From Thermoplasmatota archaeon (GTDB taxonomy: Archaea > Thermoplasmatota > E2 > DHVEG-1), in NCBI GenBank assembly GCA_025457885.1, contig JALOTN010000005.1, forward strand, positions 1-42,528: a stretch of 42,528 bases of DNA, written 5' to 3'. The stretch's first letter is position 1. Each line of letters starts with the position of its first letter. Both the position numbers and the translations under genes were made by a program. Positions 16,966-38,241 of this stretch are shown in pieces. The notes beneath the pieces are model-generated. The model was given only the letters and a program-made list of their open reading frames with translations. It did no database searches and was not told the origin of the DNA.

Positions 16966-17019
16966 GGGTACCCCCTCAAGGGTAATCATCAGCTGTTAAA
17001 GAAGGTTATCCTCAGAAAA

Positions 17020-18429: not shown

Positions 18430-19407
18430 ATGAAGGAAACCTCGGCACAACAAGATATTTGGACAGAAAAATATCGACCAAAGACGCTCTCAGAAATTGT
18501 CGGACAAGAAGCCATCGTAGAAAGGCTCAAAGCCTATGTAGGGACACAGAACGTCCCTCATCTTATATTCGCCGGACCACCAGGAACCGGGAAAACCACA
18601 GCTGCACTCGCGTTAGCCCATGAGGTGTTCGGGGAGCAGCACTGGTCACAGAACTTCAATGAACTTAATGCTAGTGATGAACGAGGGATCGGTATCATCC
18701 GGGGGAAAATCAAGGATTTCGCCCGCACCGCACCCATCAGGGCATCCTTCAAGATCATTTTTCTGGATGAGGCAGACTCCTTGACCCAAGAAGCACAAGC
18801 CGCATTGCGACGCACCATAGAAAAATATACCCATATCTGTCGCTTCATCCTCTCGGTCAATTATTCTTCAAAGATTATAGAGCCGATACAATCTCGGTGT
18901 GCCGTCTTCCGTTTCAAACCACTCACCGCGGATGATATCAAGAAATTCATACGGAAGATAGCCACCAAGGAACACCTGGAGATCACCTCTGATGGCCTTG
19001 AAGCCCTTATTTTCATCGCGCGGGGGGATATGCGGCGAGCTGTCAATATCCTTCAGGTTGGAGCATCATGTAATAAAAAGATAACCGCGGAGCTGCTATA
19101 TGAGACCTCAGCGACCGCTCGACCTGAGGAGATTAAAAAACTCATCACCACTGCGCTAGGGGGAAATTTCATGGCGGCACGCAACCACCTCTACGAACTC
19201 CTAATAACCTATGGATTAAGCGGTGAAGAGATCGTTAAACAGATTCATCGGAGCATCTTTGATCTCACCATCCCCGATGATCAGAAGGTTCAGTTGATGG
19301 AAAAAACCGGTGAAATAGAATTCAGACTTGTCGAGGGAAGCAACGATCATATCCAGTTAGAATCCCTCTTAGCCCAGTTCGTCCTCTTCGGAAAAAAATT
19401 ACAATAA
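18430..19407 (+). CDS. rfcS: Replication factor C small subunit
   Basis: A 325-residue AAA+ clamp-loader ATPase that opens PCNA and places it on primed DNA. It shows TEKYRPKTLSEIVGQ at the N-terminus, Walker A AGPPGTGKTT (~residue 47), ELNASDERGI, Walker B IIFLDEADSLT (~110), sensor 1 FILSVNYSSKI and the RFC box SRC (~154). A C-terminal collar domain completes the normal length. The start ATG follows AAGGAC. The 3' end converges on and overlaps cpgS by 9 nt. The large subunit gene is not in the window. Confidence 0.97.
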   Translation: MKETSAQQDIWTEKYRPKTLSEIVGQEAIVERLKAYVGTQNVPHLIFAGPPGTGKTTAALALAHEVFGEQHWSQNFNELNASDERGIGIIRGKIKDFARTAPIRASFKIIFLDEADSLTQEAQAALRRTIEKYTHICRFILSVNYSSKIIEPIQSRCAVFRFKPLTADDIKKFIRKIATKEHLEITSDGLEALIFIARGDMRRAVNILQVGASCNKKITAELLYETSATARPEEIKKLITTALGGNFMAARNHLYELLITYGLSGEEIVKQIHRSIFDLTIPDDQKVQLMEKTGEIEFRLVEGSNDHIQLESLLAQFVLFGKKLQ

Positions 19408-21255: not shown

Positions 21256-23526
21256 ATGGAAGAAAAAACAACACATAAGAAACACCCCCTCCATTCTTCA
21301 CAGCCAGAGACAGTTGCAGATATTGAAAAAAAAATCGATGAACTTTTTATCACACGTCCGAAGGATAAAGAGAAAAAAACACCAGGAGACCATCCATCAA
21401 AAGAATGGTCGTTTCCCCAAGAAAATCAGAAACCAAATCTTTTCTACGTAGAAAGCAAAAAAAAGACTGAATCATCAAAAACGAATACAAAAGCCAAGAA
21501 AACGACAACCGTCAAGACAAAAAAACATATTGGTTTTAGCAAAAAGAAAAAAGAATCAGAGACAGTTAAAAAAGAACCTACCGTCATAAAAGAAAAAGAA
21601 ACAGAAAAAACCGATGAACCACTCCCACATTTCGAAGAATCCGTTGCTCAGGTAAAAGCAGACGAAGCAGCATGGCTGGACCAGCAGATAAAAGCAAAAA
21701 TGAATATCGAAACAAAACCGGCTAAAGACCCCACACCGATCACAACAAATATCAATGAGCCAGTTTCTGATGAACCTATCCAGGAACAACCTCCTGGGAA
21801 AGAAGAACTACAATCTACTCCACAAAATAACACGTTAAAGATCTCCGAGCCAGAACCCACGACCTTCGAAACAGAACCACTCCCTGCAGAGATAATAACA
21901 AAAACCAATGAGAGCGCTACGGGACAAACAACAGTCCAGAAAGAAATAAAAATAGAAGAAATCACCCCTGATGGTCAGATACATTTTTTAAAAGAAGCAA
22001 ATCAACTAAAAATCCACACCCTTCAACGGATGGGATACAAAGAAAACGCGATTGATGAAATCGATTTTTACCCGATTCTTGAACCTTTTGCCTATGTACA
22101 GATTATCCGCGAAAAAGAATCACTTGATAAACGATACGTCCTCCTTGAAATGCAGTTATCAAAAGATGAGGAATATCTTCTGAAATTTATCAAGGAGACC
22201 CTCGATGGTTTTGCTTTTAAAACAAGTGATCTGGAGACGAAAGGAGAGGACAAATACCTCAGCGAAAAAGTCGACCTCATCATCGAAGATTACATGCTAA
22301 ACATCGATTCACTGACTAAAAAGAAGATACTCTACTATCTGGAGAAGGAATCCATTGGGTTAGGAAAGCTTGAAATCATCATGAAAGACCCAAACATTGA
22401 GGATATCTCCTGTGACGGATCGGGTGTCTTCATCTTCCTGTACCATCGCCGCTACGGATCTTTAAAAAGCAACGTTCAGTTCAACGATGAGGAAGAACTC
22501 ACGGCCTTTGTTGTAAAACTCGCTCAGAAATGTGGAAAACACATCTCGATATCAGAACCAATGCTTGATGCGACCATGCCTGATGGGTCTCGTATCCAGA
22601 TGACCCTCAGCACAGAGGTGACGACAAAAGGATCAACCTTCACCATTAGAAAATTCAGTGAAGATCCATTCTCACCACCAGACCTCATTGAATTCCACAC
22701 CATGTCCTCTGAGATGGTCGCTTACATGTGGCTAGCGGTAGAAAACGGCATCAATGCGCTGATTGCAGGAGGTACCGCTGCAGGAAAAACCTCTACCCTG
22801 AACGCACTTTGCTTATTTATCCCGCGAGAATCAAAGATTGTTTCCATTGAAGAAACCCGGGAGATAAACCTGCCTCATCCCAACTGGATCCCTGGGGTCG
22901 TCCGATCCGGATTTGGGGAAGTCGTAGGAAACAAGGTTATCGGTGAAATTGACCTGTATGACTTAATGAAAGCAGCCCTCAGACAGCGACCAGAATATAT
23001 CCTTGTCGGTGAAATCAGAGGGAAAGAAGCTTACGTGTTATTCCAGGCGATGGCCACGGGACATACCACGTATTCAACGGTTCATGCAGATTCAGCTCAA
23101 TCACTCATCCATCGTCTTGAAGGAAAACCAATTGAGATTCCCCGTATCATGCTTCAAACGCTTGATATCGTCATCATTCAGGTCATCTCACGAGTAAAAA
23201 ACAAACGAGCACGCCGTTGCAAACAAATCATTGAAATCATCGATATCGACCCGACCACGAAAGAGATACTCACAAACGAGGTGTTCCGATGGGACCCGAT
23301 TGAGGATAAATTTGTGTATTCTGGGAAAAGCTATATTCTCGAACGAATCAGAGCAGAGAAAGACATCAGTCGGGAAGGGATGATTACTGAGATAAAAAAT
23401 AGGACGATGTTACTTGATTGGATGAACAAGAATAACATTCGGGAATTCAAAAAAGTCGCCACTATTATCGCTCAATACGTAGATAATTCTTCTGAAGTAA
23501 TGAAGAAAATTAAGGCTGAATCATGA
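21256..23526 (+). CDS. Type IV pilus/secretion ATPase 1 (TadA/FlaI/GspE type), long charged N-terminus
   Basis: A 756-residue ATPase that would power assembly or retraction of a type IV pilus-like filament at the inner face of the membrane. Residues 1-~240 are Lys/Glu/Pro/Thr-rich and probably disordered. An N-terminal domain begins at YPILEPFAYVQI (~271). The motor domain has Walker A GGTAAGKTS (~503), the Asp box SIEETREINLPH, Walker B ILVGEIRGKEA (~581) and the His box GHTTYSTVHADS. All motor motifs are intact. It overlaps the second ATPase gene by 4 nt (ATGA), indicating coupled translation. Confidence 0.93.
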   Translation: MEEKTTHKKHPLHSSQPETVADIEKKIDELFITRPKDKEKKTPGDHPSKEWSFPQENQKPNLFYVESKKKTESSKTNTKAKKTTTVKTKKHIGFSKKKKESETVKKEPTVIKEKETEKTDEPLPHFEESVAQVKADEAAWLDQQIKAKMNIETKPAKDPTPITTNINEPVSDEPIQEQPPGKEELQSTPQNNTLKISEPEPTTFETEPLPAEIITKTNESATGQTTVQKEIKIEEITPDGQIHFLKEANQLKIHTLQRMGYKENAIDEIDFYPILEPFAYVQIIREKESLDKRYVLLEMQLSKDEEYLLKFIKETLDGFAFKTSDLETKGEDKYLSEKVDLIIEDYMLNIDSLTKKKILYYLEKESIGLGKLEIIMKDPNIEDISCDGSGVFIFLYHRRYGSLKSNVQFNDEEELTAFVVKLAQKCGKHISISEPMLDATMPDGSRIQMTLSTEVTTKGSTFTIRKFSEDPFSPPDLIEFHTMSSEMVAYMWLAVENGINALIAGGTAAGKTSTLNALCLFIPRESKIVSIEETREINLPHPNWIPGVVRSGFGEVVGNKVIGEIDLYDLMKAALRQRPEYILVGEIRGKEAYVLFQAMATGHTTYSTVHADSAQSLIHRLEGKPIEIPRIMLQTLDIVIIQVISRVKNKRARRCKQIIEIIDIDPTTKEILTNEVFRWDPIEDKFVYSGKSYILERIRAEKDISREGMITEIKNRTMLLDWMNKNNIREFKKVATIIAQYVDNSSEVMKKIKAES

Positions 23527-25256
23527 TAAAGAAAATTGCTATTTGTCCTACGTGTCATTCAAAAATCTCCTGCGAAGGTGACCCCGGACAAAAAGTCACA
23601 GTCAAATGCCCGAAATGTGGGAAAAAAGGCATCGTCGCATTTTCAAGTCATGAGATTTCCATCGATGAGAACAATCTAGTGGAGCTTGAGTGTTACCCTA
23701 TTCTTGAACCGTTTGTTTTCATTAAATTGTTAAAAGACACCAAATCACTTGATAAATATTATAAGGCAATGGAGCCACAGCTGACCGATGCTGAAAAAGT
23801 CTCCCTGAATTTTATACAGGAGTCCCTTATAAAATCAATCGATATCCGTTTGGATGAATTGGATAATGAGAAAGTCGAGGCATTTCTATCAGAACGTATC
23901 AGTCATATCATCAATGATTATAATCTTATGGTAGATGACGTCCTGAAAAGTAAAATCTTGTATTATATAAAAAGAGATTTTGTCTGGTACGGCCCGATAG
24001 ACCCCCTGATGCGAGATCCACAGATAGAGGATATCTCCTGCGATGGATCAGGTCAACCACTCTTCTTGTTCCATAGAAAGTACGGGTCCCTGAAGAGCAA
24101 TATACAATTCTCCGATGAAAACGTCTTATCCAAATTCGTCGTCATGCTTGCGCAGAAATGTGGCAAACACATCTCCATAGCAGAACCGATGCTAGATGCG
24201 ACCATGCCAGATGGGTCCCGTATTCAAATGACACTCAGCAAGGCGGTCACCGCAAAAGGATCAACATTCACCATCCGACGATTCAAAGCAGACCCCATAA
24301 CCGCAACAGATTTAATTAAATTTAAAACACTGTCCTCTGAAATGGTTGCCTATCTCTGGCTTGCTGTTGAAAATGGTATCAACGCACTTATCGCCGGAGG
24401 GACAGCTGCTGGGAAGACATCTACTCTGAATGCGATTTGTTTGTTCATACCTCGTGAGTCAAAGATCGTCTCCATCGAAGAAACCCGAGAGATTAATCTC
24501 CCTCACCCCAACTGGATCCCTGGTGTGGTCCGCTCCGGGTTTGGTGAGGTGATCAATGATAAACTCGCTGGAGAAATAGATCTGTATGATTTGATGAAGG
24601 CGGCTCTCAGACAGCGCCCAGAATATATACTAGTCGGAGAAATACGAGGCAAGGAAGCCTACGTGTTATTCCAAGCGATGGCCACAGGACATACCACGTA
24701 TTCAACGTTCCATGCAGATTCAGCCCAATCACTTATCCATCGGTTAGAGGGAAAACCCATTGAAATACCAAGAGTCATGCTACAGTCCCTTGATATCGTC
24801 ACTATTCAGATACAGGCAGAATTAGGAGACAAACGAGTTCGACGGGTGAAACAAATCGTCGAAATCGTCGATATCGACCCAATGACCAAAGAAATCCTGA
24901 CCAATGAAGTGTTCCGATGGGACCCGGTCCAAGATCATTTTTACTTTTCTGGAAAAAGCTACGTGATGGAACGCATCCGTAGTCAACATGGCCAATCAAA
25001 GGAAGATATGCTTGATGAACTGAGCCGACGTGTTGAGATTCTTGAATGGATGCAAGAAAACAACATCAGAGCGTTCAAGGATGTCGCCCGAATTGTGTCA
25101 TCCTATATCGATACACCTGATGATGTGATGGAAAAGGTAAGAAAAACAGGGAAAACGAAACAAAAAGAAGAAAATAAAGAAGCAGAAACCCTGGATAAGA
25201 AACCTGATGGCGCTGAGGTAGAAACGCCATCGAATATTACAATAAATAATAAATAA
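23523..25256 (+). CDS. Type IV pilus/secretion ATPase 2, with N-terminal zinc ribbon
   Basis: A 577-residue paralog of the preceding ATPase. Instead of the charged extension it has a zinc ribbon at residues 8-38 (CPTCHSKISC...CPKCGKKG). The shared part starts at YPILEPFVFIKL (~57), with Walker A GGTAAGKTS (~292), SIEETREINLPH, Walker B ILVGEIRGKEA (~368) and GHTTYSTFHADS. Both ATPases look active, so a mixed hexamer or separate extension and retraction motors are possible. DNA around Walker B and the His box is nearly identical in the two genes. The C-terminal ~45 residues are Lys/Glu-rich. Confidence 0.93.
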   Translation: MIKKIAICPTCHSKISCEGDPGQKVTVKCPKCGKKGIVAFSSHEISIDENNLVELECYPILEPFVFIKLLKDTKSLDKYYKAMEPQLTDAEKVSLNFIQESLIKSIDIRLDELDNEKVEAFLSERISHIINDYNLMVDDVLKSKILYYIKRDFVWYGPIDPLMRDPQIEDISCDGSGQPLFLFHRKYGSLKSNIQFSDENVLSKFVVMLAQKCGKHISIAEPMLDATMPDGSRIQMTLSKAVTAKGSTFTIRRFKADPITATDLIKFKTLSSEMVAYLWLAVENGINALIAGGTAAGKTSTLNAICLFIPRESKIVSIEETREINLPHPNWIPGVVRSGFGEVINDKLAGEIDLYDLMKAALRQRPEYILVGEIRGKEAYVLFQAMATGHTTYSTFHADSAQSLIHRLEGKPIEIPRVMLQSLDIVTIQIQAELGDKRVRRVKQIVEIVDIDPMTKEILTNEVFRWDPVQDHFYFSGKSYVMERIRSQHGQSKEDMLDELSRRVEILEWMQENNIRAFKDVARIVSSYIDTPDDVMEKVRKTGKTKQKEENKEAETLDKKPDGAEVETPSNITINNK

Positions 25257-25283
25257 GGAAAGGAAAAAATCGGAGGGATGCCG

Positions 25284-26159
25284 ATGACGTTAACAAAATA
25301 TCAACGAATGAGTTATAAGATGTTAGGCCGACTTGGTGAACGAAGAGCGAATCAACATCTCCAGGATGCGTTGCAATCAGCGCATATGGAGATCCGCGCT
25401 GGTGCGTATCTATCCTATGTGTTTCTCAGTACCATCATTGGGCTTCTTGTAACAATGATTGTCATCGTGACCTTTGTCTTTATCCTCTTGCCCTTGATGG
25501 GTGTGGTTTTAGACACCGGATTGGTTGTTTTTTTCTTGTTTATCCCTGGGTTTATCGCGGTCATCATCTATGCAATGCTGCTCTCATTACCGAAGAGTCG
25601 GGCAAAGAAACGTAAAAAGAAAATCGACGTCAATCTCGCCTATGCGATTAACTTCATCTCCGCCATGGCATCAGCCGGGGTGACACCAACAGAGATTTTT
25701 AAAAGCCTCTCAAAACAGGATATCTACGGAGAAGTCAAAGAAGAATCCGCATGGATATTCCGTGATGTTGGTCTGCTTGGATATGATATTCTTAGTGCAA
25801 TCAAAAAGAACATCGCTCGTACTCCCTCTCAACGATTCAAAGAATTCCTCCAAGGGATGGTCGTAACGGTCACCTCCGGAGGGTCCTTAAAAACCTACTT
25901 TATGCATAAAGCCGATCAATACCTCTGGGAAAACCGCAACCAGCAGAAACAACTCCTAGAGACCCTGGGGATCATGGCGGAAAGCTATGTGACAGCCGCA
26001 GTCGCTGGAGTGCTCCTCCTTCTTATCGTCATTCCGCTGATGATGATTATCACTGGTGATTGGAATTCCATGTTCCTCTATATTTTAATCTTGATTATCG
26101 TGCCTCTTATCCACATCGGGTTTGCGGTGGTGATTCGAGGGATGTGTCAGGCGGCCTAA
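25284..26159 (+). CDS. Pilus assembly membrane platform protein 1 (TadC/FlaJ, GspF-type)
   Basis: A 291-residue polytopic protein, with two membrane helices near residues 40-105 and two near 235-290. Between them is the cytoplasmic GspF-type domain: IDVNLAYAINFISAMASAGV, a TPTEIF segment and LLGYDILSAIKKNIARTPS. Such proteins form the membrane platform beneath the pilus ATPase. The ATG at 25284 is preferred over 25278 because GGAGG (25272-25276) has proper spacing to it. The next platform gene starts 2 nt after its stop. Confidence 0.88.
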   Translation: MTLTKYQRMSYKMLGRLGERRANQHLQDALQSAHMEIRAGAYLSYVFLSTIIGLLVTMIVIVTFVFILLPLMGVVLDTGLVVFFLFIPGFIAVIIYAMLLSLPKSRAKKRKKKIDVNLAYAINFISAMASAGVTPTEIFKSLSKQDIYGEVKEESAWIFRDVGLLGYDILSAIKKNIARTPSQRFKEFLQGMVVTVTSGGSLKTYFMHKADQYLWENRNQQKQLLETLGIMAESYVTAAVAGVLLLLIVIPLMMIITGDWNSMFLYILILIIVPLIHIGFAVVIRGMCQAA

Positions 26160-26161
26160 TC

Positions 26162-27064
26162 ATGAAAAAAAATAAAGAAACTGTTAAAACAAGCTATTTC
26201 CGAAATCTGATGCTTACAAAGAATGTGACTCGGCTTGTTGTCTACATCGTCTCAGGCGTCCTGGTTACCGTATTCATCCTTCTTGGGATCCTCTCGATAT
26301 TTGGGATAGGAACAGGATTCCTCGGAGTCATTGATTATTTTGTGTTCGCATTACTCTCAGGGACTGGAATTTTGGGGACCTATGAATCAATTCACGTCCG
26401 CAGAATCCAAAAAATCGATGGCATCTTCCCCGATTTTGTCCGAGACCTTGCAGAGTCCAGAAGAGCCGGAATGACATTTACAAAAGCGATCCTTTTTGCA
26501 TCAAAAGGAGAGTATGGTATCCTCACACCTGAGATTAAAAAAATATCACAGCAGGTTTCCTGGGGTGGAAGTGTCGCTGATGCACTCGAATCATTTGCCC
26601 TGCGGGTGAACACAAAATCAATCCGTCGGACAATCACCCTTATCATAGAGGCAAGCAACAGCGGGGGAAACGTCGCTGATGTCCTTGATGTCGCAGCAAA
26701 GGATGCCCGAGAAATTAAAATGCTCGAAGCAGAACGGAGGACAAACATGGCCTCATACGTCGTAGTCATCTATGTGGGTATGTTTGTGTTCCTCGCGATT
26801 GTTTTAATCTTATGTACAAGCTTTATCCCTGCCATGGTCGGCAGCGAAGGATCACAAGGTATGCAAGGGGTTATGGGTGGTGGAAGCAACGCTTCCCAAG
26901 AAGAAATCTCCGGGGTGTTCTATCTTGCTTGTCTTGTTCAAGCCTTTGGGTCTGCTTTAGTCGCAGGAGTCTTCGAAGACGGCCGGTATACCTCGTCGGT
27001 GAAACACATTTTTATCATGGTTTTTGTCACATGGATCCTGTTTAAACTTCTCTTAGGGGTTTAG
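26162..27064 (+). CDS. Pilus assembly membrane platform protein 2 (TadC/FlaJ, GspF-type)
   Basis: A 300-residue second platform protein. Membrane helices lie near residues 20-75, 200-225 and 260-300. The conserved GspF-type core is IFPDFVRDLAESRRAGMTFT, then the segments around GGSVADALESFA and SNSGGNVADVLDVAA. The start is the ATG at 26162, 2 nt after the previous stop; the frame is open upstream but that part overlaps platform gene 1 and is a shadow. Two TadC/FlaJ-like proteins per machine are common in archaeal pilus systems. A pilin gene starts directly at its stop codon. Confidence 0.88.
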   Translation: MKKNKETVKTSYFRNLMLTKNVTRLVVYIVSGVLVTVFILLGILSIFGIGTGFLGVIDYFVFALLSGTGILGTYESIHVRRIQKIDGIFPDFVRDLAESRRAGMTFTKAILFASKGEYGILTPEIKKISQQVSWGGSVADALESFALRVNTKSIRRTITLIIEASNSGGNVADVLDVAAKDAREIKMLEAERRTNMASYVVVIYVGMFVFLAIVLILCTSFIPAMVGSEGSQGMQGVMGGGSNASQEEISGVFYLACLVQAFGSALVAGVFEDGRYTSSVKHIFIMVFVTWILFKLLLGV

Positions 27065-29575
27065 ATGAAAAAGACAATAAAAAAATCCTTGTTTTCTAAA
27101 AAAGAGCATGCGGTTTCTGAAATAGTAGGGACATTAATTCTTATTGTTATTGCAGTAAGTACGTTTTCCGCAGTTTCAATAATCGTCCTGAATCCCTGGT
27201 CGAATTTATCAAGCGTGGAAAACCTCCCCTCTGTTTTCCTCGTGGGATCTATCCATAACAACGATGTACTGATTGAACATCAAGGTGGTGTTGCCTTAGA
27301 TACGAAAACCAAGATAACAATCACCATTGATGGAGCCGCTGATACATTCCAGGTGGATGATTTCAATTATTGGAATGATCTTAATACGGATAGTCTCTGG
27401 AATGTTGGTGAGCGTATTGTATATCCCGCAGGCAGTATCCTTGGCAAAGAAGTCTCCTGTATGATTGTCGAAGTAGATAAGAATTGTATCATCTTCGATA
27501 AGATACTACAAAAGGGGATAATTGTTTTTTCACCCTATCTTACTGTGTTGCCACCAGATGACGTCTCTGAGGATTCAGCTATCATGAAAATGTATTATAA
27601 TTTCTATAACCAGAGTTGTTTCGCCTCAGGGTCTCTTAATTTTACCTATGGTATTTTTGGTGGTCCTTATAGCGATACCCCCTCAATTACTCCACTGTCT
27701 CTGGACGGATGGTACGGCTTCCAATTAAATGGACTGCTGAGTGGAACGCTATATGAGTACTGGGCTTGGATGAACTGCACCAATGGGACCATGTTCGATG
27801 GCCCACTGTCTTTTTATACCTATCAGGTCACGCGAGGTTTATGGCATTTGGATGAGGGTTTTGGTTCAAGTAGTGCTGCTGATGCCATTAATCCTGCCTG
27901 TAATGGGTCGGTGACCAGTGCAATGTTTTTCACTGGGGGAAAACTCAATGGATCATTGAATTTCACAGGAACAAACACGTATGTTGATGTTCCTCATCAT
28001 CCGAAATTTAATTTAACACAAGAGATTACCATTGAAACATGGCTGAATGTCTCAAAGACCGGAGCACAATTCCCCGGAAATGTATCGGAACTTTCATCAA
28101 AAAACATCACAGACATCCTAGGAGATACGTGTATTGAACCTGATTTAATTCATATCACCGGGACGTTATATGCGATGGCGTATCGAAATAATGCATCAAC
28201 CTCTGTAACCACGTTCCAAATGGATGATGATGGAGTATTCCTCGGAACGATTGACACAAAAGGAATCCTCGTCCCTCATTTTTACGAACCCACCATCATT
28301 AATGTTCATAATTCCATCTATGCTATTGCGTATGGTGCTTCTGATGATCAAACGGAAGCAAAAAGCCATATCGTGACTTTACCAATCTATGGAAATGGAA
28401 CAATTGGGGAAATCATCGACACCTTTGATTTTCCAGCATATTATGGACGCGAACCAAATTTTATAAACATTGCACCGGGTATCTATGCGATGGCACTCGG
28501 TGGTGCATCCTTTGAAACCTATCCAACAGGATACCTTGTCACCATTTCAATAAGTGATTCGGGGGATATTGGAACAGGACTGATTGATACCTTGAAGTTT
28601 CCACTCTCCACAAGCTGTTCAGAACCCTCTATTGTTCATATCACCGATGACCTCTACGGAGTAACCTATAATGGATTTGGTGCAACTGCGGGGCTTGGTT
28701 ATCTTATCACCATGCACATCCTCACCAATGGGTCAATTGTGGAACCATTGGAGGAAGTTGATCAGTTTGGGTTACCTGAGGATGGATTAGAACCGACGAT
28801 GATTCATGTCGTCGATGACATCTATGCGATCTCCTATGGAGCTGATTCCAACGATCTTCTCCGAACCGGATATATAAAAACACTCAGCATCAATTCCCTA
28901 GGACAAGTCATCAACGACTCCTTGGATATTCTCCCCTTCTACACATATCTTTCTCCGATCGATTATAACTTTGAGACCGACATCCTCCATGTCGAAGATA
29001 ATCTCTATGCGGTGTCTTTCACCGGTGGGAACAACAGTAATTGGAAACGTGGGTTTCTCACAACGGTATCAATCACAGATACAGGGAATATTTCCGATGC
29101 AGCATTATTCATCTATGAATTCAAAGGGAGAGCCGCCCTTGGTGGCACGAGTGCATTAAACCTCGCATCATATGTCGACAGACTCATCGTAGTCTATGGA
29201 TCAATCAATTCCACAGATCAAGGTTTTCTTAGCATGGAGAAAATCGATTTAATCGGTCAAGAAAAATCCATTATCCAAAAAGGAAATGCCTACGCACTCA
29301 TGGTCAATTATGATCTGCTCACCGCCTGGATGAGAATAGGAAATGCAACCTATACCGTCTCAGGCACCGTCCCGTTTGATAGTTGGGCACGAATTGATCT
29401 GACCTATGGCGGGGGTTTTCTGAAGCTTTATGTCAACGACATCATACAAACCGGGGGAAGTGCACCATGCACAGGGCAGATACAGACCAATACCGATCAT
29501 CTTCTCTTTGGAGGAGGTTTATATGGTTCCCTTGATGAAATTAAAATCTTCAGAGGAATCTATATCCCATCATGA
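27065..29575 (+). CDS. Giant pilin-like protein 1: pilin N-terminus + split LamG with 7-repeat propeller
   Basis: An 836-residue protein. A leader ending KKEHA precedes the pilin helix VSEIVGTLILIVIAVSTFSA (class III signal). Next come the archaeal pilin beta domain (VLIEHQGGVALDTKTKITIT, ~80-150), an FN3/Ig-like domain (~160-255) and the first half of a LamG/concanavalin-like fold (GLWHLDEGFG ... ITIETWLNVSK, ~258-332). Seven ~55-residue repeats follow (~353-735), with the pattern EPxxIHVxxxxYAIxY...GYLxTIxIxxxGxI. The LamG fold then resumes (IIQKGNAYALMVN ... FDSWARIDLTY ... LKLYVNDI) to the end. It has many N-x-S/T sequons. The start codon touches the stop of the platform gene. Probably displayed on a pilus. 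Confidence 0.85.
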   Translation: MKKTIKKSLFSKKEHAVSEIVGTLILIVIAVSTFSAVSIIVLNPWSNLSSVENLPSVFLVGSIHNNDVLIEHQGGVALDTKTKITITIDGAADTFQVDDFNYWNDLNTDSLWNVGERIVYPAGSILGKEVSCMIVEVDKNCIIFDKILQKGIIVFSPYLTVLPPDDVSEDSAIMKMYYNFYNQSCFASGSLNFTYGIFGGPYSDTPSITPLSLDGWYGFQLNGLLSGTLYEYWAWMNCTNGTMFDGPLSFYTYQVTRGLWHLDEGFGSSSAADAINPACNGSVTSAMFFTGGKLNGSLNFTGTNTYVDVPHHPKFNLTQEITIETWLNVSKTGAQFPGNVSELSSKNITDILGDTCIEPDLIHITGTLYAMAYRNNASTSVTTFQMDDDGVFLGTIDTKGILVPHFYEPTIINVHNSIYAIAYGASDDQTEAKSHIVTLPIYGNGTIGEIIDTFDFPAYYGREPNFINIAPGIYAMALGGASFETYPTGYLVTISISDSGDIGTGLIDTLKFPLSTSCSEPSIVHITDDLYGVTYNGFGATAGLGYLITMHILTNGSIVEPLEEVDQFGLPEDGLEPTMIHVVDDIYAISYGADSNDLLRTGYIKTLSINSLGQVINDSLDILPFYTYLSPIDYNFETDILHVEDNLYAVSFTGGNNSNWKRGFLTTVSITDTGNISDAALFIYEFKGRAALGGTSALNLASYVDRLIVVYGSINSTDQGFLSMEKIDLIGQEKSIIQKGNAYALMVNYDLLTAWMRIGNATYTVSGTVPFDSWARIDLTYGGGFLKLYVNDIIQTGGSAPCTGQIQTNTDHLLFGGGLYGSLDEIKIFRGIYIPS
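28123..29268 (+). repeat. Seven tandem propeller-like repeats in giant pilin 1
   Basis: Seven degenerate ~160-170 nt coding units. At protein level each unit has a D/EP-x-I-I/V-H-V start, a YAI/M-x-Y core, a G-Y/F-L-x-T strand and a D-x-G-x-I turn. Seven units equal one seven-bladed beta-propeller; counted by eye. Confidence 0.7.
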
Positions 29576-29623
29576 CCCTAAAATGAAACCAAAAAAATAT
29601 GTCCCGCTAAAAAATGTGAAAAC

Positions 29624-32600
29624 ATGAAACAAAAAATAAAGAATAAAAAAAACGATTCTCCCAATAGACGGAAAAACACAGGGGCCTCAGAAGTGGTTGG
29701 CACCCTCTTACTAGTCAGTATTGGAGTATCACTTTTCGCATTATTAGCAATTGTGACGTTTACGTTACCATCTATCTTCTTCTCTGAACCTACCCCCTCA
29801 ACAAATATCATCGGTAGAGTGGAAGCAAACACAGTGGTATTCGAACATTATGGGGGACGACCCTTACCACTGGACACAAAAATAACGGTGATGTTCGCTG
29901 AAATCCCTATGATTATGACGGTGGGTGATCTCCTTGATGCGTCCTCAAAGGCTGATGGCCAATGGAATATAGGTGAAAAAATAATCATTGTCAATAATGA
30001 TCCAAATCTTCCCATCATGCTTATCAATGCAATGATCACAGATACCCAGAGTAACACAGTTGTGATGCGAGGAGTAATCCAAGAAGGCTCTCAAGCAGTC
30101 AATCCAATCGCAATCACCTTACATGCAGACACTATCACAACAAACACCGCAAAAATCTACATGAAATACGATTTTCGATACTACATCGGTACAAGAAAAG
30201 TCTGCTTCACCTATATCAAAGCATCAGATTATCTTGCAAATAACAGCGCACCATGGAACACTACTGGTTGGGTGCAGGTGTTTACAGGAAATGGTTCGTA
30301 TAATTTCAATCTTGTTGGATTATTGGAAAATACAGAGTATTTCTATCAAGCCTGGGTTCAATATAACTCCTCAGTAAATATCACTCAAAAAGTGAATAGT
30401 TCTGGTTCAATCAATTTGTTCCGAACTCAGAGCTACTCTAGTGGAATGTGGCATTTCGATGAAAGCTCTGGTTTGATAGCGATTGATTCATCAAATAGCG
30501 GGAACAACGGTACCTTGTTTCCCTCGGATGTCAATGAAGCTGCTCAACGGTTAAATCAAACCCAGAACGTGGTGAACAACCGCTCGTTGCGTTTCGATGG
30601 ATATAATGACTATATCACCGTCAATCACGCGGCAAGTCTCTCACCGACCAATGAAATAGCCATCGAAGGATGGGTTAAACCAGAGTTTAAAAATGAATGG
30701 AAGGGAACAAATCTTCAACGGATTAACAGCACCATGTATGGGACCGCAACCTATGGATGCTCTGAACCTGATATTCTTAATATCACAAACAACAGATATG
30801 TGATTGTCTCAAGAAATTCTTTGTATGCTGGTTTTGTCGTCACTGTCGAAATCTCTGATAATGGGAATATCACTGAAAATGCGACAACGAGTGTCTGCGA
30901 TATCTACCAATTTGAGGCGACACGCTGTGAAACCCCAAAGATAATTAAAGTGGTAGGAAGCACCGATATTTATGCAATTGTGTACAGGGGTCCGAATTAC
31001 TATCTTTATATGGCGACGGTTCAAATCAAATCTGACGGGAAAATAACAAAAGCAGTCATCGATAAAAAAACATTGGATTCAATCAATTCAAACTACCCTG
31101 ACATCGTTTACACGGACAATGATTTTTATGGTATCGTCTATTCCTCATATGAGAACTATTTAGCTGCGAATCGTTATGTCGGCCGTCTCCAAATTGCTAG
31201 GGTTACAACAGCCGGAGCTATCACGGCACAAAAAGCGTATTACAATTTTGGTGCATCCGCTAGCCCTACAGGTATCATGCAGTATCTAGACATCATCCAT
31301 GTTGATGGAGATTTTTACTCTATCGTCTTTCGGGATTCTGATACCGATGGGTCTCTAAGAGCTGTTGAAATAAAAAATGGTTTTGTTATCTTCGTTGATA
31401 GCGTTCTTTATAAATTTGATAACAACAATATCTCAGATCTCCCTCTACGGATCGTCCATGTGTACGACAAGATCTATGCAGTTTTATATGGAGATAAAGC
31501 AGGAACAATTTTACAAGGAGCAGCAATCATTACTCTTTCAATATCGAGTACCGCCACGTTTGAAGATACTATTAACTACAAAACCATTTTACCTCCCGCG
31601 GACTGGACGGCGTTTACAAACCCCGAGATTCTCCAAGTATCAGGGAATATCTTTGCTGTCTCGTATCGCATTAGTACACGAGCGGAAGTAAAGACCCTTG
31701 AAATATCAAATGCGGGAATAATAACAAATCATACGAATGATGCGATTTGGAAATACGCCTACCAACCCTCTTCGTCCTATACGATTAACACACCAAAAAT
31801 AATCCGGGTGAATCCGACAATCGATCCGTATATGAAAACCTTCGCGGTTGTCTATCCAAAGACGATTGGTGCTGATACAAACAATGGTGTTCTCTTAACG
31901 ATTCAGATTGCTGACAATGGGTCTATTGCGAAAAAAATTTTCGATTCAGTCCTCCTTGGCCCCGTCAACTTCTATGCTCCTGACATCGTCCATGTCTACA
32001 ACGATATTTATGCTGTTTTTAGCAGGAAAGTCATGTATGGAGCCATGTCCCTACATACCATTCGTATCAATAATGTCGGAAAAGTTAACACGAGTTTTTT
32101 AGACACCTTAGATATCCCAATGCCTGAGACGACCCCGGGGACAACCATACGGATTTATTATGCGATTGATAACATCTACCTTGTCGCCTTCAATAATTAT
32201 GGGTCTCCGGGGATCACGTTAAAGACGGTTGAAATTGCGAATAATGGGACCATAAAAGATACCGTTCTTTGCTCTTATAACATCTCGAAAGCCGGGTATT
32301 CAAACTTCTGCTCACCGACAGTCATCCGTATCAACAATGACGTCTTTGCGGTTACGTATCATTCTACAAACTATGCTAGTAAAAGTGATTTTATCAGTAC
32401 AATAAAAATACTTCCAACGGGAAATATTTCTGTTATCGACACGTTTACTCAAAATTCTTATTTTTCCTCTGTGTATGGATATGATGAGTATTCAGATATC
32501 GTCCCTATCTTTGGTAGTAGTAATCTGTACGCATTCGTCTATGGGTATGATTATTTCATCCCTGGACAACATCGAGGCTCTGGAGTCCTTATGACCGTCC

Positions 32601-33478
32601 AGATAAATGCTACTGGAACAATAAATCAAATACCTTTGACAACATATGTATTTGACACCTATGGTGCGAGTAGACCAGATATTCTGTATATCGAGAATAC
32701 CACCTACGCGATGGTGTACTCAAAATCGGTTTGGGTAAGTCCCTATCAAATAACCGGGAACCTTGTTACCTTAAGCATTTCCTCGAATGGAACGTTGATT
32801 AAAAAGATTGATGCCGTGACCTATTCAACGGTGAATTCAAATTACGATGTCGCGCATTGCCAGTACCTAAATCGGATGTATAGGGATGTGTATGCTTTAA
32901 TATACACGATCCCATCAGGATCTACCGCACGAGGGTATGTTGGTACCTTATGCATCTCGACAACCGGGTCAATCTACCGGACCGTCAGTAATGTAGTCTT
33001 TGATTTTTCATTGGCATTGAAAACAGCGACAAATCTTTTACCATCTTTTACAAATATAACAAATAATATTATTGGATTATGTTACCAGGGAGATTACGAT
33101 GATGGGTATATTGAGACGGTTAAAGTCACGATTTCCGATACAAGTTCATCTCTTAAAAATATCATCTCGAAATCCGGAGCCTATGCGATTAAAGGGAATC
33201 AAACAACGTTTGTCGCCACGTTAAGAACCACCAGCGGAGATAAGACATTAACTCTTCCAATCAAACCAGGTTGGAATTATCTTGTTTTAACCTATGATCA
33301 TTCCAAAATTAAATTCTTCAATAACCTCACAAATGTTTCTATAGTGTGCAATGAGAACATCATCAGCACAGCAAACCCCATCATCTTTGGAGGGTTTAGA
33401 GGTATCTATGATGAGTTCGCTATCTATAAAATGCATCTGAGGGATGATGAAGTTATTGCTCATTATAACAAGTATTAA
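29624..33478 (+). CDS. Giant pilin-like protein 2: pilin N-terminus + split LamG with 14-repeat double propeller
   Basis: A 1284-residue protein with the same design as its neighbours. The leader ends RRKNTG, followed by the pilin helix ASEVVGTLLLVSIGVSLFAL. The pilin beta domain (VVFEHYGGRPLPLDTKITV) and FN3/Ig-like domain follow. LamG first half is GMWHFDESSG ... IAIEGWVKP (~275-355). Fourteen ~57-residue repeats occupy ~373-1180, exactly twice the number in protein 1. LamG resumes at IISKSGAYAIKGN and ends at IFGGFRGIYDEFAIYKMHL. More than 1200 residues is far beyond ordinary archaeal pilins (~100-200). It is the third-from-last gene of the cluster, 48 nt after giant pilin 1. Confidence 0.85.
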   Translation: MKQKIKNKKNDSPNRRKNTGASEVVGTLLLVSIGVSLFALLAIVTFTLPSIFFSEPTPSTNIIGRVEANTVVFEHYGGRPLPLDTKITVMFAEIPMIMTVGDLLDASSKADGQWNIGEKIIIVNNDPNLPIMLINAMITDTQSNTVVMRGVIQEGSQAVNPIAITLHADTITTNTAKIYMKYDFRYYIGTRKVCFTYIKASDYLANNSAPWNTTGWVQVFTGNGSYNFNLVGLLENTEYFYQAWVQYNSSVNITQKVNSSGSINLFRTQSYSSGMWHFDESSGLIAIDSSNSGNNGTLFPSDVNEAAQRLNQTQNVVNNRSLRFDGYNDYITVNHAASLSPTNEIAIEGWVKPEFKNEWKGTNLQRINSTMYGTATYGCSEPDILNITNNRYVIVSRNSLYAGFVVTVEISDNGNITENATTSVCDIYQFEATRCETPKIIKVVGSTDIYAIVYRGPNYYLYMATVQIKSDGKITKAVIDKKTLDSINSNYPDIVYTDNDFYGIVYSSYENYLAANRYVGRLQIARVTTAGAITAQKAYYNFGASASPTGIMQYLDIIHVDGDFYSIVFRDSDTDGSLRAVEIKNGFVIFVDSVLYKFDNNNISDLPLRIVHVYDKIYAVLYGDKAGTILQGAAIITLSISSTATFEDTINYKTILPPADWTAFTNPEILQVSGNIFAVSYRISTRAEVKTLEISNAGIITNHTNDAIWKYAYQPSSSYTINTPKIIRVNPTIDPYMKTFAVVYPKTIGADTNNGVLLTIQIADNGSIAKKIFDSVLLGPVNFYAPDIVHVYNDIYAVFSRKVMYGAMSLHTIRINNVGKVNTSFLDTLDIPMPETTPGTTIRIYYAIDNIYLVAFNNYGSPGITLKTVEIANNGTIKDTVLCSYNISKAGYSNFCSPTVIRINNDVFAVTYHSTNYASKSDFISTIKILPTGNISVIDTFTQNSYFSSVYGYDEYSDIVPIFGSSNLYAFVYGYDYFIPGQHRGSGVLMTVQINATGTINQIPLTTYVFDTYGASRPDILYIENTTYAMVYSKSVWVSPYQITGNLVTLSISSNGTLIKKIDAVTYSTVNSNYDVAHCQYLNRMYRDVYALIYTIPSGSTARGYVGTLCISTTGSIYRTVSNVVFDFSLALKTATNLLPSFTNITNNIIGLCYQGDYDDGYIETVKVTISDTSSSLKNIISKSGAYAIKGNQTTFVATLRTTSGDKTLTLPIKPGWNYLVLTYDHSKIKFFNNLTNVSIVCNENIISTANPIIFGGFRGIYDEFAIYKMHLRDDEVIAHYNKY
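30740..33160 (+). repeat. Fourteen tandem propeller-like repeats in giant pilin 2
   Basis: Fourteen degenerate units of about 170 nt, with the protein pattern P-D-I-V-H-V-x-x-D-x-Y-A-V-x-Y ... T-x-x-I-x-x-x-G-x-I. Typical unit cores are PDIVHVYNDIYAVF, PKIIKVVGSTDIYAIVY and PDILYIENTTYAMVY. The total suggests two seven-bladed propellers; counted by eye. Confidence 0.7.
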
Positions 33479-33505
33479 TCACAGAAGATGTGAAAGGACG
33501 ATATC

Positions 33506-36500
33506 ATGAAAACACAGAAAAAAAATGGGAAACCTCTGCTGTTTCAACATAGGTTACATTTCATAAATCATGAGACCGATGCTGTCTCTGAAATTATTGC
33601 AACGATTTTACTTTTATCCATTAGTCTCGCACTTTTATGCGTCGTCTACCTGCTTGTTTTGAATAATGCGACAGCACCATCGTCAACGCTTCAGGTGTCT
33701 TCCGCTCAGCTTCTTGCAACAGCAGATGATACAAAAGTTTTTTTACAGAACAATGGGGGACATGCTCTCCCATTGAACACCAAATTAGTTTTTACCATTG
33801 GTGGAACGAATTATTATGGAACCGCTGCGGATTATCTTATCGATACCAATGGTGATGGGGTCTGGAGTATCGGTGAACAAATATTATTCACGCCTCCTGG
33901 AGTCCCGAGCCTTTTCGGTTTGGAAATCCAAATTAAGATTATTAACCCTGATACAAACTCGATGATTATGGCTGGTTTGGTGCAAGATGGCGCTCAGGGT
34001 GATTTTCCCTATGCTCAGACCTTGAATCCCTATGATGTCTGGCCACATAGTGCGACCTTAAAAATGTTTTATAATTTCGTAAAAACAGATTTTCTCCCAG
34101 GTAAACTCTGGTTCCAATGGAAACGATCTGATGAGGCGTCATGGACAAAAACATCAGTAAATAACATTACTGCTGCACCCCTTTCAGGTTATCAAACTCT
34201 CACATTGTATAATCTGACATCGAATAAGAATTACTTATACGAAGCATGGATTGAATATACCTCTGGGAATACCACAGTGAATCAATCCGGTGGTATCAAG
34301 CTTTTTACTACACAGATAGATGCGATGGGTATTTGGCATTTCGATGAGCTGTCTGGTGTGAAGGTGTTCGATTCTTCAGGACAATATCCTCCCAACGATG
34401 GAACATTAAAACCAAATGAACAACGAGGGCCACAAAGAATATCTGCGCAATTGAACAATTCCCTAAAAAACTTGTATATGGATGGAATTGATGACTCTGT
34501 TGAAGTCCCAAGCTCTAGTACCCTTGGTGTCACCAATGAATGTACTCTTGAAGCATGGGTCAACCGGTCGAGTCATTGTGACGGACTTGTTGGGTTACCC
34601 GTTCAGTCATCATTGGTCCAATATGGTAACTATACTCTGGGTTGCTATGACCCTTGTCTTCTCAATACCAACGGAGATATCTTTGCTCTTGTCTCAACAA
34701 ATGAAAACTCGTATGGGTACCTCAGTACAATAAATATCACAAACACTGGAGAAATCATTGAGAACGTATCGACATCATCATGCATTCTAGACCTTTATAA
34801 TTTTGATACATCCTGTAAAAACCCAAAAATTATCCAGATAAGTGCAATCAATGGGATCTATGCTATTGTATACACTCGACCAAGCTCCGGAAATCAATTA
34901 TATCTAAAAGCTGTCCAAATTTTCGATGATGGACGCATCAATAAAGTTCCCATTGGAACACGCGTCCTTGATACGAATATCTCTGCAAGTCCTGATATCA
35001 TTAAAATTGATTTTAATACCTATGCAGTCGTCTATTCAATCACAGCGGCAAATACAGGGGTGTTACTCTCAGTGGATGTCTCTATACTGGGTGCTATTTC
35101 CGTAACGACGAATAAACTTGTGTTCGGAGACATTATGATTGAACCAGAGATCATCAAAATTGAGGATAGTATCGATAACTATGTTATCGTATACAACTGC
35201 ATTGGTGATGATGGTGGAATGCGAACAGTAAAAATAACAAACATGGGGGCTCTAACAGATATATCTCATCATATTTGGTATGATGATGATGATGGAGGAA
35301 ACCCAGAAATCGTTCATGTTCATGGTGATGTCTATGCACTAGTGTATGCTGGTCCGGTCCTGCGACAATCCTGCGTTCTAAAAACAATAGAGATACTGTC
35401 AAATGGGTCAATCACCCTGAGTCGCACCATTCCACCTCTCGCAGGAGCTATTAGTCAACTGACTGTTGATTTTATCGCAAATATGACAGTACGACATCCA
35501 CATATCATACCCTTGTTTGGAGTAAACGATTTCTTTGGTATTTCTTTTAGCATTGATTCTGGCACAAGTAATTATTGGGGAAAAATCGTCACTATTATGA
35601 TTCAAGATAACGGCAATATCGTCGCAATATCAAAAAAAGACGTCATCTTCGAACCCTTCATGTGTGCCACCTCCTATTTCATTCCACTCTCTGGCCTGAA
35701 TAAATTGTACACCGTAGTCTATCGGAGCGAGTCAAATGATGGAGTCATAAAAACTATAGAGATTGGAAATGATGGACATATCCATAATAATCCGATCATA
35801 GATCTTCAAGAAATCGGAGGTCTGAAATGCTATGTCAATGCAGAAACCCTCACCTCTGATAAAAAATATCTCATCAATGTCTATAGAGGGATTAATGCAC
35901 AGATTATCATTAAAACAGTACAAACGAACCCGGTGACAAAAACCCTTGCCCAGGCTTTCACTGACTCAAAGATCATCGAACAAGGGTATACCTCTTCCAA
36001 CGGTACGTTTAACGCGTCCTACGCCCCAATAATCATCCCCATAAAGAATGATGTCTATGCATTAGCTTATTGCCACTATATGACCCTTCCAAGTTATCAT
36101 CATGGTCGTATTGTCACGATTAAGGTGAACTCTACCGGAAAGATCTCCATCCTTGAACGGTATACCTTTGATACGAATGTCATGAATACCCCCTTCCTGT
36201 TCACTCCAATAAATAAAACCAATTTATACTACGCAGCAGTCTATCAACTTTATAGCACATCCCAAGGAAAAATAACAACGATAAAGATAGGAGACAATGG
36301 TCATATCTACGGGGTCCAAGACTCCTACATCTTCGAAGCAGGCCGATGCCGAGAGCCATCTCTGACCCCCGTCTCTGGGGACGTCTATGCGATTCTCTAT
36401 AGAGACTCACTCACATCAAGTACCTACGGCCGTCTGGCGACTCTGAAAATCTATGGAAACAACGGAACAATAAAAAAATCAGTCATCGACCTCTGGGGTA

Positions 36501-37342
36501 TCACGACATCCTGTTATCATCCTTCCATCATGAAAGTTGAGGGCACCACCTATGCCATGGTTTATTCTGAATATAACTCCGGTGTATCCCGATATATTGG
36601 CTACCTCAAAACAGTCAAAATAGCGGACACTGGGACTATCACAAAAAGCTTTGTTGACTCTTTAGAATTCATGAGACGGTTCTACACCGACAATTACATG
36701 GCACATCAACCAGAGATACTGCATATCGACGACCGTGTGTACGCCATCATCTCAAAAGACCTCCCCGACCCATGGAATAATTTTGTCTATAATGGATATA
36801 TCACCACGGTTCGTATCGGAGAAAATGGGGATATTATTGATGCTGTTGATGGCTCCATTCAAATCTCCACACTCCCCCGGATAACAAGCTATGATATGAA
36901 ACTTATACCCTTCGTCAATGACAGTTATATTGGGATTTATGGTGGGAAAAACAATGACCTCTATAACTGTATCATCCGCATTCCGTTACTAGAAACGAAC
37001 CAGACAATTTTCTCAAAAAAAGACTCCTACACTATTAAAGCGAATAAAACAAAAGTTTTTGTCACCTTCACCGACTCAAACAACAATGCCTACACCCTCG
37101 CAGGGAACCTCACCAATAACTGGAATTATATCGTCAGCACCTATGATAGAACAACGATGAACCTTTTTATCAACGCGATTCTTCAAGGAACCCGGGCACT
37201 TGGCTCAAAACCTATAAAAGTCACTACGAACAACCTTTATTTTGGCCCCTATAACAGCAACTGTGATGAATTCTCATTATATGCTGCGGTACTCTCCCCA
37301 ATCAAAATAACTCAGAATTATAATTTTAATCGTCCATCATAA
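33506..37342 (+). CDS. Giant pilin-like protein 3: pilin N-terminus + split LamG with 14-repeat double propeller
   Basis: A 1278-residue protein, close in layout to giant pilin 2. The leader ends HETDA, then comes the pilin helix VSEIIATILLLSISLALLCV. The pilin beta domain includes NNGGHALPLNTKLVFTIGG and an Asp-rich DTNGDGVWSIGE turn. The FN3/Ig-like domain begins NPYDVWPHSATLKMFYNF. LamG first half: GIWHFDELSG ... CTLEAWVNRSS (~275-357). Fourteen repeats follow (~376-1169), then LamG resumes with IFSKKDSYTIKAN and ends LYFGPYNSNCDEFSLYA. GAAAGGA precedes the ATG. It shares FDSS and Tyr/Asn-rich composition with its neighbours. Likely a surface adhesin subunit. Confidence 0.85.
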   Translation: MKTQKKNGKPLLFQHRLHFINHETDAVSEIIATILLLSISLALLCVVYLLVLNNATAPSSTLQVSSAQLLATADDTKVFLQNNGGHALPLNTKLVFTIGGTNYYGTAADYLIDTNGDGVWSIGEQILFTPPGVPSLFGLEIQIKIINPDTNSMIMAGLVQDGAQGDFPYAQTLNPYDVWPHSATLKMFYNFVKTDFLPGKLWFQWKRSDEASWTKTSVNNITAAPLSGYQTLTLYNLTSNKNYLYEAWIEYTSGNTTVNQSGGIKLFTTQIDAMGIWHFDELSGVKVFDSSGQYPPNDGTLKPNEQRGPQRISAQLNNSLKNLYMDGIDDSVEVPSSSTLGVTNECTLEAWVNRSSHCDGLVGLPVQSSLVQYGNYTLGCYDPCLLNTNGDIFALVSTNENSYGYLSTINITNTGEIIENVSTSSCILDLYNFDTSCKNPKIIQISAINGIYAIVYTRPSSGNQLYLKAVQIFDDGRINKVPIGTRVLDTNISASPDIIKIDFNTYAVVYSITAANTGVLLSVDVSILGAISVTTNKLVFGDIMIEPEIIKIEDSIDNYVIVYNCIGDDGGMRTVKITNMGALTDISHHIWYDDDDGGNPEIVHVHGDVYALVYAGPVLRQSCVLKTIEILSNGSITLSRTIPPLAGAISQLTVDFIANMTVRHPHIIPLFGVNDFFGISFSIDSGTSNYWGKIVTIMIQDNGNIVAISKKDVIFEPFMCATSYFIPLSGLNKLYTVVYRSESNDGVIKTIEIGNDGHIHNNPIIDLQEIGGLKCYVNAETLTSDKKYLINVYRGINAQIIIKTVQTNPVTKTLAQAFTDSKIIEQGYTSSNGTFNASYAPIIIPIKNDVYALAYCHYMTLPSYHHGRIVTIKVNSTGKISILERYTFDTNVMNTPFLFTPINKTNLYYAAVYQLYSTSQGKITTIKIGDNGHIYGVQDSYIFEAGRCREPSLTPVSGDVYAILYRDSLTSSTYGRLATLKIYGNNGTIKKSVIDLWGITTSCYHPSIMKVEGTTYAMVYSEYNSGVSRYIGYLKTVKIADTGTITKSFVDSLEFMRRFYTDNYMAHQPEILHIDDRVYAIISKDLPDPWNNFVYNGYITTVRIGENGDIIDAVDGSIQISTLPRITSYDMKLIPFVNDSYIGIYGGKNNDLYNCIIRIPLLETNQTIFSKKDSYTIKANKTKVFVTFTDSNNNAYTLAGNLTNNWNYIVSTYDRTTMNLFINAILQGTRALGSKPIKVTTNNLYFGPYNSNCDEFSLYAAVLSPIKITQNYNFNRPS
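34633..37010 (+). repeat. Fourteen tandem propeller-like repeats in giant pilin 3
   Basis: Fourteen degenerate ~170 nt units with the same pattern as in giant pilins 1 and 2, for example PEIVHVHGDVYALVY, PSIMKVEGTTYAMVY and PEILHIDDRVYAII. Units 7 and 8 are the most divergent, which fits a boundary between two seven-blade modules. Confidence 0.7.
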
Positions 37343-37374
37343 GAAAAAAAACAGAAATCGATAGAGTGAATAAT

Positions 37375-38241
37375 ATGAAGAAAATGATAAAATCAATCAG
37401 AAAGAGGGATGAAGCTGTCGCTGGGATCGTTGTCGCCGTCATGATTGTCGGACTGGTGCTTGCCATCATTTCAATAATTCAGACCATTTATATCCCCAAA
37501 TGGATGGAGTCCCGAGAAGCAGAGCACATGGGTGTCGTTTCAAATCAGTTCTCTAATCTCAAATACACCATTGACACACAAATCGCTTTAAGAGAGAACA
37601 TGCCGGTCTCATCCTCAATCACCCTGGGAAGCCGTGAGCTTGGGTTCTTCATGTCAAATAAAGCGTTTGGTCGCCTCGCGTTGATCTCCAATGGTTGGGC
37701 GCATCGAATCGTTCGATACGCAGGGGACACCTTTGAAGATAACTATGGGATTCTTCGCTATACATCAGAAAATGCATATTTCCTCAATCAGATTTATAAT
37801 TATGAGATAGGGGGAATCGTCCTGAACCAAACAGAGGGTGCTGTCTTTATCATCAAACCAGAATTTTCAGTTCTATACAATGCTTCAACCCGTGTGGCGA
37901 ACTTATCGTTTACCTGTATTGATCTTGTTCCAAATGATGAAAAAACATCCATAAGTGGCTATGGGACCTATCCAGTACGAACGGAGTATATCAGTATGAC
38001 GAACACCACGATAACCTCAGTGAAGACCTTTGCAGTCATCACCCCGTTTTCCTCTATTTGGTACACCTTCCTGAACACCACGTTATCTGACGCAAACCTC
38101 GTACAAAACACGGATTATACCATCACGAAGACATCTAATCAAGTCACCATCACCTTTAACGCCCCACCCTTGAACGCCGCCAATCTCTACTTACGCAAGA
38201 TACAAATCGCCGCTCAGATAACACCAGGATGGTCTGATTAA
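37375..38241 (+). CDS. Pilin-like protein 4, end of the pilus cluster
   Basis: A 288-residue single-pass protein. The leader (MKKMIKSIRKRDEA) precedes the hydrophobic helix VAGIVVAVMIVGLVLAIISI. The DEAVxG junction resembles the minor-pilin-like protein at 11253. It is followed by an amphipathic stretch WMESREAEHMGVVSNQFSNL and a beta-rich external domain. It lacks LamG and propeller parts, so it may be a minor pilin, tip or priming subunit. The ATG at 37375 is chosen over GTG at 37366. It is the last gene of the cluster; a T/A-rich convergent region follows. Confidence 0.8.
   Translation: MKKMIKSIRKRDEAVAGIVVAVMIVGLVLAIISIIQTIYIPKWMESREAEHMGVVSNQFSNLKYTIDTQIALRENMPVSSSITLGSRELGFFMSNKAFGRLALISNGWAHRIVRYAGDTFEDNYGILRYTSENAYFLNQIYNYEIGGIVLNQTEGAVFIIKPEFSVLYNASTRVANLSFTCIDLVPNDEKTSISGYGTYPVRTEYISMTNTTITSVKTFAVITPFSSIWYTFLNTTLSDANLVQNTDYTITKTSNQVTITFNAPPLNAANLYLRKIQIAAQITPGWSD

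Follow-up and report, generated by a model that had tools for sequence, protein, structure and literature searches.

Giant archaeal pilins with a LamG domain split by predicted seven-bladed beta-propellers

Introduction

Among characterised pilins, PilC of S. sanguinis comes nearest in module order to the proteins described here, as it combines a pilin, an Ig-like module and a ConA-like lectin and binds glycans (PMC9934059). PilB of the same organism is a modular pilin with a vWA domain (PMC9934059, PMC8179133), and a catalogue of 264 bacterial modular-pilin architectures makes no mention of a nested propeller in its accessible text (PMC8179133). Propellers are also presented by type IV pilus machinery in the PilC/PilY1 tip adhesins (IPR008707 beta-propeller), PilY1 itself being a non-pilin with a C-terminal propeller according to PMC8179133. 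In archaea, the Sulfolobus bindosome consists of large functional proteins with class III signal peptides and a machine of the type IV filament type (PMC4471445), and a survey of archaeal type IV pili mentions neither propellers nor LamG (PMC4858521).

Here we describe three adjoining genes of a Thermoplasmatota archaeon, whose products are termed P1, P2 and P3. They share with S. sanguinis PilC a class III pilin start, a putative beta-sandwich spacer and a module of the ConA/LamG superfamily on one polypeptide that is encoded together with an assembly machine, but they are archaeal, much larger, and interrupted within the lectin-type module by one or two predicted propellers. With PilY1 they would have the pilus-presented propeller in common, whereas they match no Pfam propeller family, and unlike the bindosome (Bas) subunits, which are sugar-binding proteins, they carry LamG and predicted propellers. 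A preliminary description of this DNA knew of no pilus built in this way, and likewise no description of such propeller-nested pilins was found in the open-access literature.

Results

Locus and assembly operon

The window, i.e. the whole stretch of 42,528 nucleotides that was analysed, is one contig from an archaeal MAG of 2.07 Mb with a completeness of ~92%. The genes of the operon are as follows:

21256..23526, + strand, T2SSE/FlaI-type assembly ATPase 1, 756 aa, intact Walker A GGTAAGKT (Pfam T2SSE 3.5e-35; adjacency conserved)
23523..25256, + strand, T2SSE/FlaI-type assembly ATPase 2, 577 aa, intact Walker A (Pfam T2SSE 4.1e-34; adjacency conserved)
25278..26159, + strand, FlaJ/TadC-like platform protein, N-half type (T2SSF 2.1e-16; aligns with ArlJ 5-245 of 555)
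26162..27064, + strand, FlaJ/TadC-like platform protein, C-half type (T2SSF 1.7e-23; aligns with ArlJ 260-541)
27065..29575, + strand, P1, giant modular pilin of 836 aa with 7 units inserted in LamG (ORF, Pfam, unit HMM, spliced flanks)
29624..33478, + strand, P2, giant modular pilin of 1284 aa with 14 units inserted in LamG (ORF, Pfam, unit HMM, spliced flanks)
33506..37342, + strand, P3, giant modular pilin of 1278 aa with 14 units inserted in LamG (ORF, Pfam, unit HMM, spliced flanks)
37366..38241, + strand, p4, small pilin-like protein, 291 aa, weakly DUF7289-like (E 0.0067, below cut-off; position conserved in relatives)

The three giant pilins of up to 1284 aa claimed in the preliminary description were recovered as open reading frames of 836, 1284 and 1278 aa, which adjoin one another on the same strand. 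Comparison of codon positions with orthologs indicates purifying selection on all three frames and in every domain, with differences of ~10-25% at positions 1+2 and ~50-55% at position 3. Directly upstream of the giants lie the two ATPases and the two FlaJ genes and downstream lies p4; the second FlaJ gene, listed as an ORF from 26060, likely starts at ATG 26162. Both within the genus and in further genera of its family the genes follow the order ATPase, ATPase, FlaJ, FlaJ, giant(s), p4, the number of giants being three or one; in several relatives the operon comprises the machinery together with one giant and p4. A TadC made from two genes has precedent in archaea (PMC4858521). In a paralogous operon of the same genome (L054) FlaJ is single and fused. 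A prepilin-peptidase gene (Peptidase_A24) is present elsewhere in the genome.

Other neighbours encode a secreted-type M14 zinc carboxypeptidase with a MAM-like domain (8877-11174, ~10 kb upstream of the operon), PCNA (13053-13790), a two-subunit glycine dehydrogenase (14177-16989) and an RFC-like ATPase (18430-19407).

Pilin start and spacer

The N-terminal modules of P1 are located as follows:

27065..27544, + strand, P1 class III signal peptide and Pilin_N module (PF07790 above cut-off)
27545..27829, + strand, P1 fibronectin III-like segment (sequence appearance; fn3 match in another pilin of the same genome)

Pilin_N (PF07790) scored 26.4, 27.4 and 28.0 bits in P1, P2 and P3 and thus exceeded the Pfam cut-off of 25.2 in all three, in agreement with the class III pilin N-terminus proposed for each of them. 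On the same chains the pilin start is combined with non-pilin modules, namely LamG and the repeat block. The spacer that follows Pilin_N appears, judged by eye, to be fibronectin III-like; in P1 the segment itself gave no Pfam match. When the own genome was searched with Pilin_N, the proteins above cut-off were encoded in open frames of 545-1298 aa with the exception of one contig-edge fragment, and apart from this fragment no small protein above cut-off was found.

One LamG domain, split by the repeats

27830..28099, + strand, P1 LamG N-terminal part (Pfam match of joined flanks, profile 2-141)
29261..29575, + strand, P1 LamG C-terminal part (Pfam, joined flanks)
30434..30697, + strand, P2 LamG N-terminal part (joined match 1-150/151)
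33155..33478, + strand, P2 LamG C-terminal part (joined flanks)
34316..34579, + strand, P3 LamG N-terminal part (joined match 1-146/151)
37013..37342, + strand, P3 LamG C-terminal part (Pfam, joined flanks)

When the whole proteins were searched with Laminin_G_3, two exceeded the cut-off of 27.6 bits (30.5 and 45.8 bits) and P2 scored 23.0 bits. Joining the flanks of the repeat block in silico gave one continuous match in each protein, with 41.5 bits for P1, 34.7 bits for P2 and 55.0 bits for P3, spanning profile positions 2-141, 1-150 and 1-146 of 151, respectively. For comparison, the two halves of P1 taken separately scored 16.2 and 19.7 bits. The same splice restored a single LamG in six relatives, including two from other families of the phylum (L102 and L103), and an uninterrupted LamG on a pilin of 691 aa (L049) served as internal control. 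These matches bear out the claim of one interrupted domain in place of two complete ones. The wording that the first and last thirds of LamG flank the repeats is loose, the split itself being correct and the break lying near Pfam position 30-38 of 151.

The LamG regions, which may fold as a jelly-roll, were mostly below pLDDT 50 in the AF2 models of P1 and P3. A weak NCBIfam match named 'TafC' fell on the LamG region, and a literature search found no paper on TafC.

A second nested design was found in the same genome on contig C37 (L063:8077-10452). In this Pilin_N protein of 792 aa an unrelated insert of ~320 aa, which has no Pfam match, interrupts LamG at a different loop further along the domain; splicing lifts LamG from 58.0 to 73.8 bits and its coverage to 3-149.

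Repeat units in multiples of seven

Between the LamG flanks lies a block of units of ~53 residues, which form the following predicted propellers:

28100..29260, + strand, P1 predicted seven-bladed propeller, 6 significant units and a divergent seventh (HMM, AF2 strands, Foldseek)
30698..31921, + strand, P2 predicted propeller 1, units 1-7 (HMM units)
31922..33154, + strand, P2 predicted propeller 2, units 8-14 (HMM units)
34580..35776, + strand, P3 predicted propeller 1, units 1-7 (HMM units, AF2/Foldseek)
35777..37012, + strand, P3 predicted propeller 2, units 8-14 (HMM units, AF2/Foldseek)

Units were counted with an HMM that was seeded from the units of P1 and iterated over relatives. In P1 six units were significant and a divergent seventh was located at residues 692-732; P1-type genes from other genera (L043, L044) likewise yielded a seventh unit. 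For P2 all 14 units were found at E<0.01, and for P3 12 of 14, units 8 and 14 being divergent. With the divergent seventh unit of P1 included, these numbers agree with the 7, 14 and 14 units that had been counted by hand.

The expectation that other archaea would also show multiples of seven held for all blocks counted. Seven units were obtained for a 500-aa protein of L046 and for L053-L057, L059, L060, L103, L107, L114, L115 and L116, 14 units for L046, L048, L049, L050, L104-L106, L108 and L109, and 21 units for L102 only. These counts leave out the divergent L045:7713-11816 and the truncated genes L041, L047 and L052, and blocks initially counted as 6, 8 or 13 units became 7 or 14 after inspection by eye. 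With eight groups taken as independent and residues modulo 7 taken as uniform, both of which are our own choices, the chance that all counts are multiples of seven is 1.7e-7.

In L046, L059, L060, L107 and L115 the protein consists of the pilin module and seven units and nothing else, and the chain ends exactly after the last unit, which indicates that seven units are self-sufficient. Identity at different unit offsets was used to probe whether the 14-unit blocks arose by copying of a whole seven-blade propeller. Offset 7 was marginally highest on average, with 36.0% against about 34-36%, and more clearly so in L048 and L050.

No match to the repeat unit was found in Pfam, PHROGs or NCBIfam, and PDB sequence searches with P1 and the propeller profiles returned no relative. 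The named propeller families that were tried (WD40, Kelch, Tectonin, PilY1, Neur) gave sub-threshold matches only, e.g. E 0.14 for Tectonin and E 0.053 for Neur.

Predicted propeller fold and possible ring closure

The ends of the repeat blocks were tested with a permuted HMM which starts at the fourth strand. In most relatives the block opens with a piece of strand D ahead of the first unit and finishes at strand C of the last one, as in Velcro-closed propellers, so that each block of seven would be self-closing with neighbouring ends, as suits insertion into a loop. The leading (closing) strand of P1 is short and poorly matched. In L110 the closure differs (2+2), the block starting with strands C-D and ending with A-B, and the total is still seven.

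AF2 was run on P1 and P3 with input confined to the window and five near relatives. The model of P1 had a mean pLDDT of 62.9, with the propeller blocks mostly at 60-90, and that of P3 residues 165-1278 had a mean of 55.3; pTM was 0.47 and 0.41, respectively. About four strands per unit were predicted in most units of P1. Foldseek searches of the PDB returned mainly beta-propellers for both models. Matches of P1 included Sec13 (target TM 0.64) and the PLL lectin 5c9l (0.55), and those of P3 comprised the PHL lectin (5mxh, 8q83), tandem-propeller proteins such as Elp2 and single propellers, e.g. 1jof and 3fgb (target TM about 0.6). The seven-bladed PLL/PHL lectins of Photorhabdus are thus among the structural matches of both models, and no sequence similarity to them was found. 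As these are global alignments with large rmsd, they support the fold class and not the toroid geometry. With regard to the propellers that had been proposed, the recurrent fold and the four-strand units are therefore in favour, whereas closure of the toroid is absent from the models, whose confidence is modest. Together with the strand pattern at the block ends, the counts lead us to infer closed seven-bladed toroids in P1-P3.

Distribution and related architectures

Among 390 genomes sampled across the phylum, the propeller profile matched 27, all but two of them within the family (25), and a scan of genome contigs with P1-specific patterns gave five near relatives only. In plasmid, phage and viral collections no relative of the repeat was found. 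Large proteins that look secreted and gave no sign of a pilin start (L058, L102, L103, L110, L112) also carry the repeat, and two relatives outside the family have the split LamG with no pilin start detected, which indicates that the nested module is not restricted to pilins. The preliminary description had covered neither this wider occurrence nor the fibronectin-like spacer, the operon upstream of the giants and the closing pieces of strand D.

One of the secreted-looking proteins (L102:2773-8856) has right-handed-helix-like flanks and a LamG that is split by 21 units, corresponding to three predicted propellers. In another, of 4042 aa (L058:678-12803), seven units occur in each of two separate blocks, and a long series of cadherin-like repeats comes after them. 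Furthermore, a P2 ortholog (L041:5660-8905) is broken into two ORFs near the 3' end (the same gene as L070:12532-15777 and 15777-16268), either by an assembly error or by a frameshift.

Discussion

We consider P1-P3 to be adhesive modular type IV pilins with propellers nested in a lectin-type LamG domain, a reading to which we assign a probability of roughly 0.75. The class III N-terminus would anchor them in the membrane, and after cleavage by the prepilin peptidase the upstream ATPase/FlaJ machine would extrude or assemble them. The mature head would then consist of the pilin beta-domain, the fibronectin-like spacer and one LamG jelly-roll, with one or two closed seven-bladed propellers in the loop between the xxIExWV and xIxSKxxAYxL strands. 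Each propeller would begin with the outer strand of the last blade and end at the third strand, bringing its two ends together as the loop demands. The LamG and propeller faces could offer binding surfaces far from the cell, and the capacity would increase in steps of seven blades. The role is most likely multivalent adhesion or polymer capture, where LamG or the propellers may bind the ligand and P1-P3 may be incorporated into a filament. It is rather unlikely that such a filament is built chiefly from the giants, which would then be its principal subunits and not rare tip adhesins, with a core made from the N-terminal helices and a LamG head with one or two propellers displayed by every subunit; this idea draws on the Pilin_N frames of at least 545 aa (the contig-edge fragment apart) and on the single-giant operons of relatives.

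The main rival is a bindosome-like arrangement, in which the machine would display P1-P3 on the surface as receptors that capture detrital polymers or glycopeptides for breakdown, and no filament would be formed. We regard it as possible, with the odds clearly against it. The scarcity of small Pilin_N proteins above cut-off (only the contig-edge fragment) fits such an arrangement, as does the carboxypeptidase encoded ~10 kb upstream; both ATPases weakly resemble BasE, and one of the FlaJ halves weakly resembles BasF, with every score well short of the cut-off. However, Pfam finds no solute-binding-protein domain in P1-P3, Pilin_N would miss divergent small pilins, and the genome is ~92% complete.

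The two other alternatives concern the shape and the purpose of the repeats. An open solenoid, or a string of separate beads, would be in line with the low global confidence of the models and with the fact that no sequence kinship to any known propeller family was detected, but it would give no reason for multiples of seven, and the strict 7/14/21 counts, the circular strand closure including the 2+2 variant, the four-strand units and the propeller matches in Foldseek make it very improbable. That the architecture is right and its role structural, as a coat, sheath or S-layer-like material, is improbable too, if less so. In its favour, the ligand sites of P1-P3 are putative, and several giants can occur per operon (three here, often one elsewhere). 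LamG and lectin-type propellers are nevertheless usually binding modules. Furthermore, the nearest characterised pilin of this module order binds glycans (PMC9934059). Both points speak against a structural role.

In bacteria, as described in PMC8179133, domains are grafted onto pilins by joining a module to the pilin via a linker. Here, instead, predicted closed propellers are inserted into a lectin-type domain in whole multiples of seven blades, within a conserved archaeal operon. The proteins offer a repeat family that is absent from the libraries searched, and the natural series of 7, 14 and 21 units may be used to study how a nested domain grows while the host domain still folds. For the uncultured Thermoplasmata they provide a concrete hypothesis of how these organisms may hold on to surfaces or food.
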